Shown one piece after another: positions 2,266-30,889 of a DNA stretch of 33,730 bases. The DNA comes from a virus, in IMG/VR virus record IMGVR_UViG_3300030012_001764, positions 1 to 33,730 of that record. One strand, 5' to 3'. Under the pieces are notes generated by a model. That model had not been told where the DNA came from. It saw only the letters and a program-made list of their open reading frames with translations, and did not search any database. Position numbers and translations under genes: made by a program. The first letter of the stretch is position 1. The number at the start of each line of letters is the position of its first letter.

Positions 2266-2417
2266 ACCAAGTTAGCAACCATGAGAACACCTTGCTATTA
2301 TTGACTTAGAGGTAGGTAAGCACCAAGTAACCACCAAGTAGCAACCAAGTTTGCAACCATGGATGAGGCTAGTGTAGTATTGACTTGTAGCGTTTCAGCA
2401 ACCAAGTTTGTAACCAT
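2266..2417. repeat. Iteron array A: three full iterons and two half-sites
   Basis: Full repeats of the type ACCAAGTTTGCAACCAT lie at 2266-2282, 2343-2360 and 2400-2417. Two CACCAAGT half-sites at 2321-2328 and 2332-2339 continue in 11-bp steps into the middle iteron. Distances between iteron ends are 78 and 57 bp. The array lies between the early promoter of the replication operon and the AT-rich leader of the lysis operon. Array B (16962-17123) repeats the arrangement in mirror orientation. This fits an origin with initiator iterons or an operator for a phage regulator. Confidence 0.9.
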
Positions 2418-2418
2418 A

Positions 2419-2480
2419 GGAATATATATATAACTATATACTCATTACATTCGTATATACTTACATATATATCTAGTCCG
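2419..2480 (+). promoter_or_regulatory. AT-rich block beside iteron array A; candidate late promoter or DNA unwinding element
   Basis: A nearly pure A/T tract follows the last iteron, with TTCGTATATAC and then TACATATATATCTAGT (2462-2477). A closely similar tract with TACATATATATTAGT occurs on the minus strand beside array B, in front of the structural genes. The shared words upstream of the two late operons suggest a promoter read by a phage-modified polymerase; an unwinding element of an origin is the alternative. No TTG-N19-TAnnTTT promoter is visible here. Confidence 0.5.
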
Positions 2481-2715: not shown

Positions 2716-3176
2716 GATTACAGTTATTTATTTTGTTAACCAAGTTACAAACTCAATCTATTAATATAATGAGTATTATACTCTCTTTATTGTTGCCTAT
2801 TTACGACATAATTTTACTAGTCGGATTCGCAGTTTTCTTAGATACTATTACGGGTGTTTGGTCTGCTATAAAAACAAAGCAAAAGATAACGTCAAGAGCG
2901 TTGAGTTCGATAGTTTCAAAGACGTTATTATATGAGGCTACATTGATTTTATTCTACCTAATGGACGTAACTATTCTAAACAGCATTGTTAAGAGTATCT
3001 TTAGTGTTGACTTGTTAACTACAAAAATACTAGCTTTAACGCTTTTAAGTGTTGAGATAGTTTCCATAAATGAGAACTATAAAAAAGTGATGAAAATTGA
3101 TTTATGGTCTGCATTGAAAAACTTATTTAGCAGAGCAAAAGAAATAACATCAGACGTAAAGAACATAAAAAAATGA
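2712..3176 (+). CDS. Phage holin (holin family 4-like)
   Basis: 154 residues, with at least three hydrophobic segments (about 20-50, 75-93 and 103-122). The sequence FLDTITGVWSAIKTKQKITS after the first segment is typical of Bacteroidota phage holins of the family-4 type. The C terminus is basic. Holins make the inner-membrane lesions that let the endolysin out. The start at 2712 is supported by the ATGA overlap with the preceding gene; an alternative Met at about residue 20 would remove a hydrophobic leader. The next gene, the amidase, overlaps by 4 bases. Confidence 0.8.
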   Translation: MRLQLFILLTKLQTQSINIMSIILSLLLPIYDIILLVGFAVFLDTITGVWSAIKTKQKITSRALSSIVSKTLLYEATLILFYLMDVTILNSIVKSIFSVDLLTTKILALTLLSVEIVSINENYKKVMKIDLWSALKNLFSRAKEITSDVKNIKK

Positions 3177-3586: not shown

Positions 3587-3995
3587 GTTTTTAATCGTTT
3601 TAACATTGTTTAGTTGTTCTAGTAGTTATCACTATCAAAAAGCACTTAAAAAAGGCTTAGAACCTCTTAAAACATCAGATACAATAAGAATATCGACTAT
3701 AGATTCAATTCCTGTTATTTATAGAGACTCAATTATATATGAAAGATTTTTTTCGTCAAAAGACACCGTTATAAAATACGAAAACGTTTATGTTCCCAAG
3801 ACTAGATTAGAGATAAGAACGGAATATAAAACAATCAGAGACACGCTTCGACTCATTGAGAGAGTAGAGAGGGTTAAAGCTAGACAGGAGGCTAGGACTG
3901 AGAGAAAAAATAAACCTAATTGGACTATAATAATAATATTTTTAATGCTATTTTTAGGTGTTATCCTTTACTTCTCACTACGTAGAACTACTTAG
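3573..3995 (+). CDS. Unimolecular spanin-like lipoprotein
   Basis: 140 residues from the ATG at 3573. The N terminus is a lipoprotein signal (hydrophobic FLIVLTL, then lipobox LFSC with Cys at about residue 15). The C terminus is a single transmembrane helix (NWTIIIIFLMLFLGVILYFS) with a short basic tail. Between lies a charged, partly coiled periplasmic region. An outer-membrane lipid anchor plus an inner-membrane helix in one chain is the topology of u-spanins, which fuse the two membranes after wall degradation. The frame also allows a start at 3516, but that would put 19 polar residues before the lipobox, so it is less likely. Confidence 0.7.
   Translation: MRFYRFLIVLTLFSCSSSYHYQKALKKGLEPLKTSDTIRISTIDSIPVIYRDSIIYERFFSSKDTVIKYENVYVPKTRLEIRTEYKTIRDTLRLIERVERVKARQEARTERKNKPNWTIIIIFLMLFLGVILYFSLRRTT
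3978..3995. promoter_or_regulatory. 18-bp tandem palindrome element upstream of P2
   Basis: CTACGTAG-AA-CTACTTAG: two 8-bp palindromes with starts 10 bp apart, 15 of 16 positions matching the consensus. It ends 36 bp before the -33 TTG of the promoter at 4032-4061. It covers the last codons and stop of the spanin gene. Confidence 0.75.
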
Positions 3996-4031
3996 AAATC
4001 AATATTTTTTAATTTTTTTTTAATGTTTCAT

Positions 4032-16849: not shown

Positions 16850-16897
16850 ACAATAATAACTTTTTAATGACTATTTTGTTCGTTAATTTAGAATTGA

Positions 16898-16960
16898 ACT
16901 AATATATATGTATATAGATATAATACGATAGTATTATAGATATATATATATATATACTCC
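16898..16960 (-). promoter_or_regulatory. AT-rich block beside iteron array B; candidate late promoter or unwinding element
   Basis: Mirror counterpart of 2419-2480. Read on the minus strand, it carries TATCGTATTATAT and then TACATATATATTAGT (plus coordinates 16898-16912) ahead of the protease gene. The block differs from the one beside array A by small indels but keeps the order of words. Confidence 0.5.
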
Positions 16961-16961
16961 T

Positions 16962-17123
16962 ATGGTTAACATCTTGGTTGGTCATCTTCTGAAACCCACG
17001 TCCCTATTGGCCCCGTCCATGGTTGCAAACTTGGTGCAAAATAGCCCTACTTGGTGATGACTTGGTGACGGTATACCTCTATCCCACGTCAGTAAAGGGA
17101 CTCTAATGGTTGCTAACTTGGTG
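16962..17123. repeat. Iteron array B: three full iterons and two half-sites
   Basis: ATGGTTAACATCTTGGTT at 16962-16979, ATGGTTGCAAACTTGGTG at 17019-17036 and ATGGTTGCTAACTTGGTG at 17106-17123, with ACTTGGTG half-sites at 17049-17056 and 17060-17067. Spacers of 39 bp (after the first iteron) and 38 bp (before the last) equal those of array A, while their sequences differ. Nine extra bases lie between the middle iteron and the half-sites. Array B points towards the promoter at 17186. Confidence 0.9.
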
Positions 17124-17131
17124 CTAATATT

Positions 17132-17149
17132 CTACGTATTACTACTTAG
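17132..17149. promoter_or_regulatory. 18-bp tandem palindrome element upstream of P7
   Basis: CTACGTAT-TA-CTACTTAG, 14 of 16 positions matching the consensus, ends exactly 36 bp before the -33 TTG at 17186. The 36-bp interval is AT-rich and starts with a GAAAATTAATTT word shared with the element at 27116. Confidence 0.8.
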
Positions 17150-17185
17150 ATGTGAAAATTAATTTAATTTTTTTTGCTAAAAAGT

Positions 17186-17215
17186 TTGGTAGTTCGGTTT
17201 TTATAGTTAATTTTA
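17186..17215 (+). promoter_or_regulatory. Bacteroidota-type promoter P7
   Basis: TTG (17186-17188), 19 bp, TAATTTTA (17208-17215). The -7 is weaker than in the other promoters. The leader is A/C-rich (AACAACAACAAAAACAAAGC) and runs to the ATG at 17248. Confidence 0.7.
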
Positions 17216-17247
17216 CTCTCAGATAACAACAACAAAAACAAAGCAAA

Positions 17248-17475
17248 ATGACAAAAAACGAAATCGCAGACGAGATAGAGTCTAGGCTAGGGATAGACGT
17301 TAAAGAGGTGAGGATTTATAATGGTCGTTACTTCGCTATAGAACCTACTCCGATAACGTACGGGTATTGGGTTCACGAAATATTTATCAAGGGCTTAGAG
17401 ATAGACTTTAGGATAATGAATGAGGTGTCTTCAATGAAGGAAGTAGAGGAGTATTTTAGAGCCACTTTCGGATGA
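17248..17475 (+). CDS. Hypothetical early-type protein (75 aa)
   Basis: Unrecognised small alpha/beta protein: a helix (KNEIADEIESRLG), a strand (VKEVRIYNGRYFAIEP), then EIFIKGLEIDFRI and a final helix. No signal peptide or membrane segment. It is the only gene driven rightward from control region B and has an early-type promoter with the 18-bp element and the iteron array upstream. It is set apart among late genes on the other strand, so it is probably a host-takeover or regulatory protein; this is inferred from placement. Confidence 0.75.
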   Translation: MTKNEIADEIESRLGIDVKEVRIYNGRYFAIEPTPITYGYWVHEIFIKGLEIDFRIMNEVSSMKEVEEYFRATFG

Positions 17476-23358: not shown

Positions 23359-23892
23359 CTATTGATTTATTTCTTTAATAGTTTGGTCTATAGTTTGCTT
23401 TAATAACTTGTCAATTACTAAACCGTACTTTGAAGTAACCTCTTTAGATAACTTCTTAAAATGCTTCTCATAGGGCTTAGTAAAAAACATTGTTTTCTTT
23501 ATACCTACTTTTTGAACGTGCCTACTTAGTGCGAACTTAAGACTCTTGATAGATACGAATTGACCTTTCTCATTCCTTCCTGTAGTTAGTCCCTTCTTAA
23601 TCGCCCACTTATGAAACACTCTAGGAGGCGGTGCATTCTCAGGTCCTGACTTAAATGAGTAGTCAGATAAAGACTCACCCGATTCAGTACCCCTAACCCC
23701 TCTGTCTTTAAAGAATCCGTAGGGCTTCATTGAGAACGTAATCTGTATTGAGTTCTTAGATACGTTTACCTTGCCTTTTATAGAGTCCTGTAATGTTCCC
23801 GTTGTTGAGAATACCTTAGCGTTATTCTTAGCCTCATTAACGACCTTATTTTTAAAGTCCTCTAAATACTTAAATAACTCTTCATTTTGCAT
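23359..23892 (-). CDS. HK97 gp10-like tail/neck completion protein
   Basis: 177 residues. The pattern YGFFKDRGVRGTESGESLSD followed by PPPRVFHKWAIKKGL and a helical C terminus is that of the HK97-gp10-like proteins that complete the neck or tail end. The N terminus is helical. It follows the tail terminator-like gene by one base, as expected in the head-completion to tail-tube order. Confidence 0.75.
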   Translation of the reverse strand: MQNEELFKYLEDFKNKVVNEAKNNAKVFSTTGTLQDSIKGKVNVSKNSIQITFSMKPYGFFKDRGVRGTESGESLSDYSFKSGPENAPPPRVFHKWAIKKGLTTGRNEKGQFVSIKSLKFALSRHVQKVGIKKTMFFTKPYEKHFKKLSKEVTSKYGLVIDKLLKQTIDQTIKEINQ

Positions 23893-27079: not shown

Positions 27080-27115
27080 GTTTTTTTTAAATTATTTTTA
27101 AATTAATTTTCATCT

Positions 27116-27133
27116 CTACGTATTACTACGCAT
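27116..27133. promoter_or_regulatory. 18-bp tandem palindrome element upstream of P3
   Basis: On the plus strand CTACGTAT-TA-CTACGCAT, 13 of 16 positions matching the consensus; it ends 36 bp before the -33 TTG of P3. The adjacent bases give GAAAATTAATTT towards the promoter, as at 17132. Confidence 0.8.
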
Positions 27134-27160
27134 AAAAAAAGGGGCTCTCTCGAATCCCTT
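27134..27160 (-). terminator. Intrinsic terminator after the P4 gene
   Basis: AAGGG...CCCTT around the loop ATTCGAGAGAGC, then T-rich, on the minus strand. Bases 27160-27222 between it and the gene's stop contain a further small hairpin (GCGAAAAGTCGC), so the 3' end of this transcript may be structured. Confidence 0.7.
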
Positions 27161-27518: not shown

Positions 27519-27553
27519 ACTTTTTGCAAACTTTTTTTAAAATAATTTGAAAT

Positions 27554-27571
27554 ATACGTATAACTACGTAG
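27554..27571. promoter_or_regulatory. 18-bp tandem palindrome element upstream of P4
   Basis: On the plus strand ATACGTAT-AA-CTACGTAG, 14 of 16 positions matching. It ends 35 bp before the -33 TTG of P4, one base less than in the other copies. Confidence 0.75.
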
Positions 27572-27598
27572 AAAAAAAGGGAAGTTCTCACCTCCCTT
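27572..27598 (-). terminator. Intrinsic terminator after the sigma-factor unit
   Basis: AAGGGAG...CTTCCCTT with a short loop, then T7 on the minus strand. It closes the transcript carrying the sigma factor, the 42-residue protein and the 180-residue protein. Confidence 0.7.
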
Positions 27599-28289: not shown

Positions 28290-28835
28290 TTAATCTATTA
28301 GTTCGTATTCTTTATTCAAATAATCTTGATAATCCTCTCCGACCTCTTCTCTTATTCTTTCCTTGCAATGTTTCAAGGTTGTGAATATAGAACTCGTTGA
28401 GATTCCTGTTTCTTTTGATATCGTTCTCATACTCTTCCCTGTCTCTTTATACAGGTTAAATAACATCTCATCATACCAATGAAAATCGGACGCAACAACT
28501 CTAACCTTGTTGAAAATCCTATCTAATGCCTCTCGACTCTCTGTATCTTCTAGTGTGCTATCTAAGTCTTTACCGATATAATCTAAAACATCTGAACTTA
28601 CTTTATTCTTGTTTGCTTTATGCTTTTTAAAATCTAGAAATAAGTTCCTTAATACAAAATACATATAACTATGCTTAACGTCTCCGTTTTGTATTAGTTG
28701 CTCTTCTTTACAGTATTTCATTATTTTAATATACGCTTCTTGCACTATGTCTTCAGCGTATGTATTCTCACCGAACCCTTTAACAACCTCTATGTATTGC
28801 TCGTGGTTCTCTGCTATTTTTTCTATCCATTTCAT
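28290..28835 (-). CDS. Sigma-70-like RNA polymerase sigma factor
   Basis: 181 residues. The region 2-like part is AEDIVQEAYIKIMKY (about 27-41) followed by YFVLRNLFLDFKKHK; the region 4 helix-turn-helix is YKETGKSMRTISKETGISTSSIFTTLKHCKERI (about 130-162, given in full here only as two halves: MRTISKETGISTSSIF and TTLKHCKERI). There is no region 1 or 3. The likely role is to redirect host polymerase to late promoters. A perfect terminator lies directly upstream, and no promoter is visible between, so its synthesis probably needs readthrough. Confidence 0.75.
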   Translation of the reverse strand: MKWIEKIAENHEQYIEVVKGFGENTYAEDIVQEAYIKIMKYCKEEQLIQNGDVKHSYMYFVLRNLFLDFKKHKANKNKVSSDVLDYIGKDLDSTLEDTESREALDRIFNKVRVVASDFHWYDEMLFNLYKETGKSMRTISKETGISTSSIFTTLKHCKERIREEVGEDYQDYLNKEYELID

Positions 28836-30645: not shown

Positions 30646-30681
30646 GTAAAAAGCGAAAAAAGTTTTAATTAATTTCGCTCT

Positions 30682-30699
30682 CTACGTAGTTCTACTTAG
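30682..30699. promoter_or_regulatory. 18-bp tandem palindrome element upstream of P5
   Basis: On the plus strand CTACGTAG-TT-CTACTTAG, 15 of 16 positions matching. It ends 36 bp before the -33 TTG of P5 and overlaps the last codons of the DUF3310 gene. Confidence 0.8.
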
Positions 30700-30889
30700 T
30701 TTCCTCTAAGTATATCAACCTGTCTAAGTATTGCTTAGCCTTCTTTAAGTCCTCAATACCATTCTTGTCTTTCCACCTTGAAACGTACTTAATAATATTA
30801 CCTTCAAAGAATGACATATCTTTACTATGAATGTAGTTCCATGTTTCTATCCCCTTGGTATAATGCTTCGGATTCTCTACTCTACTCAT
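30692..30889 (-). CDS. DUF3310 protein
   Basis: 65 residues containing the DUF3310 pattern: NPKHYTKGIETWNYI, FFEGNIIKYVSRWKDKNGIE and DLKKAKQYLDRLIYLEE. Small phage proteins of this kind are widespread in early regions; a nucleotide metabolism or regulatory role has been proposed, but none is established. It overlaps the exonuclease gene by 8 bases. Confidence 0.85.
   Translation of the reverse strand: MSRVENPKHYTKGIETWNYIHSKDMSFFEGNIIKYVSRWKDKNGIEDLKKAKQYLDRLIYLEETK

Follow-up and report, generated by a model that had tools for sequence, protein, structure and literature searches.

To our knowledge, only a handful of models, SPP1 among them, have been studied closely enough for two-origin replication of a phage genome to be understood in detail. 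Phage P4 resembles the locus described here in having two separated cis regions, ori1 and crr, with the same initiator-binding repeats; it differs in its initiator, alpha, which is a primase-helicase, and in crr, which is required in cis and is not an origin. In phage lambda, the middle of gene O, the initiator gene of the replication operon, holds direct iterons and, after them, an AT-rich tract (PMC7466680). In SPP1, a phage of Bacillus subtilis, oriL and oriR are both composed of direct repeats and an AT-rich DNA-unwinding element and are bound by gp38 (G38P), and a role in blocking forks and starting recombination-dependent replication is ascribed to the second origin (PMC6316719, PMC3485210).

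The stretch of DNA analyzed here, referred to as the window, is 33,730 nucleotides long and appears to derive from a marine, lytic phage of the flavobacterial type. Its regions A (2265-2480, + strand) and B (16898-17123, - strand) are best explained, with a probability of about 0.77, as two origins of replication, or else two initiator-binding sites of the origin kind, that moved out of the initiator gene and were duplicated, giving an SPP1-like arrangement. As in lambda, direct iterons precede an AT-rich tract and the putative initiator gene belongs to a replication operon, whereas the array of the window and its group lies outside that gene and is doubled. With SPP1, the window shares two distant regions of similar make-up, each with direct repeats and an AT-rich candidate unwinding element, an initiator candidate encoded beside a helicase gene, and genes for a single-strand annealing protein, an exonuclease, a single-stranded DNA-binding protein (SSB), and a junction nuclease, a likeness judged from published descriptions of SPP1. 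In SPP1, oriL lies inside gene 38, approximately 12-13 kb from oriR; in contrast, A and B are both intergenic, mirror each other, and lie 44% of the genome apart, and the initiator gene of the window is free of repeats. Among the papers listed by searches of the open-access literature, none describes a pair of this kind for a phage of Bacteroidota.

Mirror-image arrays and AT-rich blocks

Self-alignment matches region A to region B in mirror orientation over approximately 215 bp (self-BLASTN E = 1.1e-12). The full iteron ACCAAGTTNGNAACCAT occurs on the + strand at 2266-2282, 2344-2360, and 2401-2417 in region A and on the - strand at 17106-17122, 17019-17035, and 16962-16978 in region B, the last copy with two mismatches, while half-sites of the form ACCAAGT start at 2322 and 2333 (+ strand) in A and at 17066 and 17055 (- strand) in B. 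A scan of the whole genome revealed no copy of ACCAAGTTNGNAACCAT with up to two mismatches outside A and B, and the reversed iteron, serving as a control pattern, had no match in the genome. The motif ACCAAG reaches five occurrences per 160 nt in each region, compared with a maximum of three in 300 Markov-simulated genomes. Self-BLASTN, iteron scan, and simulation together confirm the proposal of the initial annotation that two mirror-image arrays with the same parts in the same order lie on opposite strands.

The basic unit of these arrays is the ACC-box, present twice in each full iteron at a distance of 12 bp and once in each half-site, with the sequences GCAACCAAG, TGCAACCAT, and TGTAACCAT in the window. 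Eight boxes constitute the array of region A (2265-2417, + strand; ACC at 2266, 2278, 2322, 2333, 2344, 2356, 2401, and 2413), and eight in the same order constitute that of region B (16962-17123, - strand). The box intervals are 12-44-11-11-12-45-12 in A and 12-44-11-20-12-45-12 in B, and when A is aligned with reverse-complemented B, the sole large gap inside the array measures 9 nt and separates half-site 2 from iteron 2. The geometry, initially described as identical, differs at this point, where 4 nt separate the two elements in A as against 13 nt in B. The spacer after the first iteron does have the same length in both regions, 39 nt as described; the spacer between iterons 2 and 3 is also equal, at 40 nt in each region if the 17-bp iteron is taken as the unit, and the figure of 38 bp first given for it depends on the chosen iteron start. 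Because the contig ends (1-548 and 33176-33730) overlap by approximately 550 bp at approximately 92% identity inside the helicase gene, the window is probably a circular or permuted genome of approximately 33.2 kb with ends assembled from two strains, and the separation of A and B given above treats the contig as a circle of that size.

At both A and B, the direct repeats adjoin an AT-rich block of low duplex stability, which is the layout of iteron-type origins. According to nearest-neighbour calculations over 60-bp segments, the candidate unwinding element of region B (16896-16955, - strand), which contains the short inverted repeat AATAC-N4-GTATT, ranks first in instability across the genome, and that of region A (2420-2480, + strand) is the third least stable, a rank that depends on segment size and drops to eighth with 40-bp segments. 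A 27-nt core of the A block is identical in the related contig L105, despite identities of 55% between the initiators and 45% between the DnaA-like proteins of the two phages. This conservation exceeds the plain need of a melting site, and a promoter would also account for it; when the core motif was sought as a late promoter at other positions of the window, matches were no more numerous than expected by chance. GC skew, considered as a means of mapping the origin, tracks gene direction and reveals no origin.

Array geometry and in-gene iterons in related phages

A scan of viral contigs with the iteron pattern returned 94 stretches, nearly all of them single chance matches, the real arrays being those of L014, L033, L062, and L034/L114. 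Seven arrays were read, three of the A-type (window, L062, and L105) and four of the B-type (window, L014, L033, and L114). All 56 of their boxes contain ACC, the intervals follow the pattern 12-44-(11 or 12)-(11 in A-type, 20 in B-type)-12-(44 or 45)-12, and the last box lies 9-12 nt from the AT block. Counted between box edges, the first spacer measures 38 nt in all seven arrays, with sequence identity as low as 32%. An eighth array, found in L241, whose initiator is 47% identical to that of the window, retains the last five boxes at 11-12-44-12 together with the AT block. Box 1 and the outward promoter are separated by strongly different distances in A, L105, and B, indicating that the fixed box intervals do not simply reflect a low indel rate. 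Selection on geometry, as initially proposed, is thus upheld by seven arrays that hold their intervals while first-spacer identity between groups drops to 32-53%. The 9-bp larger central gap is common to the arrays of all B-type relatives and hints that the complexes formed on A-type and B-type arrays are not interchangeable.

The two regions occur together on one record only in the window; the A and B arrays of its relatives are located on separate, short contigs, none of which spans both regions, and among the close relatives neither freely varying spacers nor a missing array, the signs named beforehand as speaking against a constrained pair, was observed. Among 21 relatives that have a structural or replication gene in common with the window, none showed a mirror pair comparable to A and B, and in more distant relatives the pair layout is absent and the iterons sit inside the initiator gene. 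Iteron-3 variants (TTTGT and ATGTT) and the spacer motifs TATTGACTT and TTTCAGAAGAT found on an A-type array in one phage occur on a B-type array in another, a shuffling that suggests gene conversion between the copies; exchange by segment inversion is ruled out by the gene order, which is unchanged on both sides of A and of B in relatives extending past the arrays.

Homologues of the O-like protein encoded at 938-1549 are present in many viral contigs, from which 79 genes were gathered. Periodic in-gene repeats, judged by codon shuffling (p < 0.02), were detected in 69 of these genes, with a period of 11-12 bp in 65 and of 23 bp in four, and are located around codon 109, just past the predicted winged-helix domain, a position matching that of the lambda origin in gene O. 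Their core is AAC(A/C): 61 of 75 linkers contain at least four copies of AACM, whereas control stretches from these genes average 1.1, and 19 of 75 contain at least three copies of AACCA, for example AGTAACCAAC and AGCAACCAGC. In contrast, no periodic repeats were found inside the initiator genes of the window, L062, L105, and L241, where an intergenic array is present instead. Three related records of 30-32 kb (G010, G012, and G008) contain, for the box searched, the in-gene cluster only. Since the in-gene iterons share both box core and spacing with the arrays of A and B, the origin reading is favoured, and a group with an intergenic array and no in-gene repeats is most simply explained by exit of the origin from the gene, together with its doubling. 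The sequences form a natural series from a candidate single in-gene origin in most relatives to a candidate paired extragenic origin in one group, along which the escape of an origin from its gene, the upkeep of two origins, and the role of geometry and near-opposite placement become directly testable. The motif (C/T)AACCA at 11-12 bp also provides a handle for finding origins in many uncultured phages.

Genes and promoters beside the arrays

The operon to the left of region A, encoded on the - strand, comprises genes for a DnaA-domain-IV-like protein (1552-1950), an O-like/DnaD-like replication initiator with a predicted winged helix (938-1549; PHROG 2514, 8e-21, and PHROG 345, 5.5e-7), and a DnaB/primase-helicase-like replicative helicase (51-941; PHROG 18375, 1.8e-23, as well as PHROG 239 and 19). 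The DnaA-domain-IV-like protein, a 132-aa DNA-binding protein devoid of an AAA+ domain, matches Pfam Bac_DnaA_C (2.5e-5) with a score under the curated cut-off, which its L105 homologue exceeds (40 bits vs 31.5); its predicted fold matches the DNA-binding domain of DnaA (3pvp and 1j1v) with weak E-values and a probability near 1. The model of the O-like protein is weak, with a mean pLDDT of 56 and values of approximately 80 over residues 51-80, and its top fold matches in the PDB are winged-helix proteins with E-values of 2e-3 to 2e-2. Searches with phmmer for either protein among PDB sequences yielded no meaningful match, and tblastn of the 1552-1950 protein against named phages yielded none. 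Of the three box binders proposed in the initial annotation, the O-like protein is the favoured candidate, the DnaA-domain-IV-like protein may be a co-initiator or regulator, and nothing points to the protein encoded at 1950-2180. Short DnaA-domain-IV proteins are common in related phages, occurring in 21 of 36 records (for example, G023-G035 and, in L109, 4992-5354). In two further contigs, L103 (484-1638) and L104 (171-1325), a 384-aa ATPase replaces the O-like initiator beside a helicase of approximately 90% identity; its Pfam matches resemble those of gp24 of the Nonlabens phage P12024S, an apparent exchange of initiators.

Holin and amidase genes lie to the right of region A. To the left of region B lies a head-protease-like gene, and to its right a 75-aa open reading frame (ORF; 17248-17475) followed by more structural genes. 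The statement that both regions separate early-type from late-type genes holds at A; the outer side of B leads only into the small ORF and structural genes. The genome also encodes an Erf-like annealing protein, an exonuclease, an SSB, a NinG/Rap junction endonuclease, and a sigma-like protein (28290-28835).

The consensus promoter of the host group is TTTG / TAnnTTTG (PMC2483708). An outward promoter of this type, CTTG-N19-TATCTTTG (2208-2240, - strand), is located on the outer side of A and drives the replication operon; on the outer side of B, the window contains a weak match (17184-17248, + strand) before the 75-aa ORF, and the canonical form TTTG-N19-TATATTTG is found at this position in the contigs L114 and L116. 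An early promoter beside each array is a constant feature, and one that is likely to be autoregulated through the boxes. The palindromic repeat CTACGTA-NN-ACTACNTAGA has 12 matches on both strands at six places, compared with 0.5 expected (2502-2520, 3978-3996, 17131-17150, 27115-27134, 27553-27572, and 30681-30700); it mostly lies just upstream of host-type early promoters, is likely the operator of a second regulator, and also adjoins the arrays of L105 and L241. The motif CGTTAAT lies shortly before the ATG at 3031, 5412, 21280, 23961, 25201, and 26802 in the P12024S record (L102), and weaker forms precede the inner genes of region A (2557) and region B (16849) in the window; it is possibly a late promoter or a translation signal.

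Proposed paired origins and alternative readings

The cultured Nonlabens (Persicivirga) phages P12024S and P12024L are distantly related to the window (portal 33% identical) and resemble it in having a mirror pair of AT blocks with short repeats, the blocks being 96% identical over 28 nt in P12024S. Their repeat differs from the eight ACC-boxes of the window: it is TGTAATAAT, and all four copies in the genome adjoin the AT blocks, two per side. At least four copies of this word arose in 6 of 200 simulations, so that copy number alone is weak evidence and the placement is the point. The AT blocks of P12024S are the two least stable sites of its genome and, with the ends of the record joined, lie 45% of the genome apart. 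On the inner side of one of them is the 3' end of gp23; no gene starts inward from this block, which rules out its serving there as the promoter of an inward gene. Neither a DnaA-domain-IV match nor an O-like homologue was found in P12024S/L, and the record annotation gives the pair regions no origin label.

An improbable reading of A and B is transcription control, in which the 1552-1950 protein or the O-like protein on the boxes would shut off the outward early promoters and activate inward late promoters in the AT blocks. Such a role would agree with the outward host-type promoters adjoining A (2240) and B-type regions, with the finding that the only two promoters of this kind before ORFs of at least 50 codons in P12024S lie exactly on the outer sides of its pair, and with the late-type inner genes (lysis and head), the strongly conserved AT core, and the sigma-like gene of the window. 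It does not explain why box core and spacing are those of in-gene iterons of replication initiators, why the inner side in P12024S has no gene to activate, or why the other late operon (terminase, leftward from 26591) is without such an array. Both an origin and a master early/late operator had been considered initially; the in-gene iterons and the stability minima support the former, and the latter is less supported as the primary function. DnaA arrays consist of head-to-tail boxes at 11-12 bp spacing, which the arrays of the window resemble, and the 132-aa protein has a predicted domain IV fold and is encoded next to the O-like gene in four of four group members; the arrays might accordingly be viewed as miniature oriC-like origins bound by this protein, with the O-like protein as helicase loader only. 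This is rather improbable, considering that G012 has no PF08299 match yet carries boxes of this kind in its O gene, that in-gene iterons of the O family have the same core, and that DnaA boxes (TTWTNCACA) are not enriched in the window (three matches where 4.0 are expected, all outside A and B).

Far more remote is a recombination element whose inverted copies would be used to flip the 14.5-kb segment or to pair in a site-specific manner: the inverted orientation of A and B and the exchange of iteron-3 and spacer types, as by gene conversion, would be compatible with it, and are countered by the constant gene order in relatives and by the failure to find a recombinase gene beside the arrays. 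Somewhat unlikely, and a variant of the main reading whose probability overlaps with it, is that only one region is an origin, either A with B as a fork barrier or non-replicative initiator site (similar to SPP1 oriR or P4 crr), or the reverse. Like oriL of SPP1, region A is next to the initiator operon, the central-gap difference in all B-type arrays implies complexes that are not identical, and the second SPP1 origin is thought to stall forks (PMC3485210); against this, A and B both have the full box set and an AT block, and the block of B is the least stable of all.

Under the preferred reading of A and B as paired origins, we infer initiator binding, melting, origin activity, and a division of labour between the regions from sequence features. 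The 938-1549 protein would bind the eight direct ACC-boxes, the members of each pair being one helical turn apart, so that bound box pairs lie on roughly one helix face per cluster and form a complex of approximately 150 bp. This may be a wrapped nucleoprotein complex whose shape requires the conserved box intervals. The adjoining AT block would then melt, and the initiator would recruit the helicase (51-941), followed by the replisome. In this lineage the array presumably left the initiator gene and now exists as two copies facing each other. As in SPP1, one origin may fire first and the other later, or the other may act as a fork barrier leading to recombination-dependent concatemer synthesis, a step compatible with the annealing protein, exonuclease, SSB, and junction endonuclease of the genome. 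Control of the outward early promoter at each array is probably a further role of the bound initiator.

A broader and tentative proposal is that an origin kept inside the initiator gene by most relatives moved out and was doubled into two mirror-image origins, constrained in geometry and nearly opposite, which fire as a co-ordinated pair, and that this architecture arose or persists with unrelated repeats in other flavobacterial phages, as in the mirror pair of P12024S/L and possibly the direct pair of Croceibacter phage P2559Y. In P2559Y (L238), two intergenic regions (23615-23767 and 43001-43153) are 79% identical in direct orientation, lie 19.4 kb apart in 43.15 kb, and contain AAACAATGTAAACAAT repeats as well as AT-rich blocks that coincide with minima of stability, making them another candidate origin or control pair.
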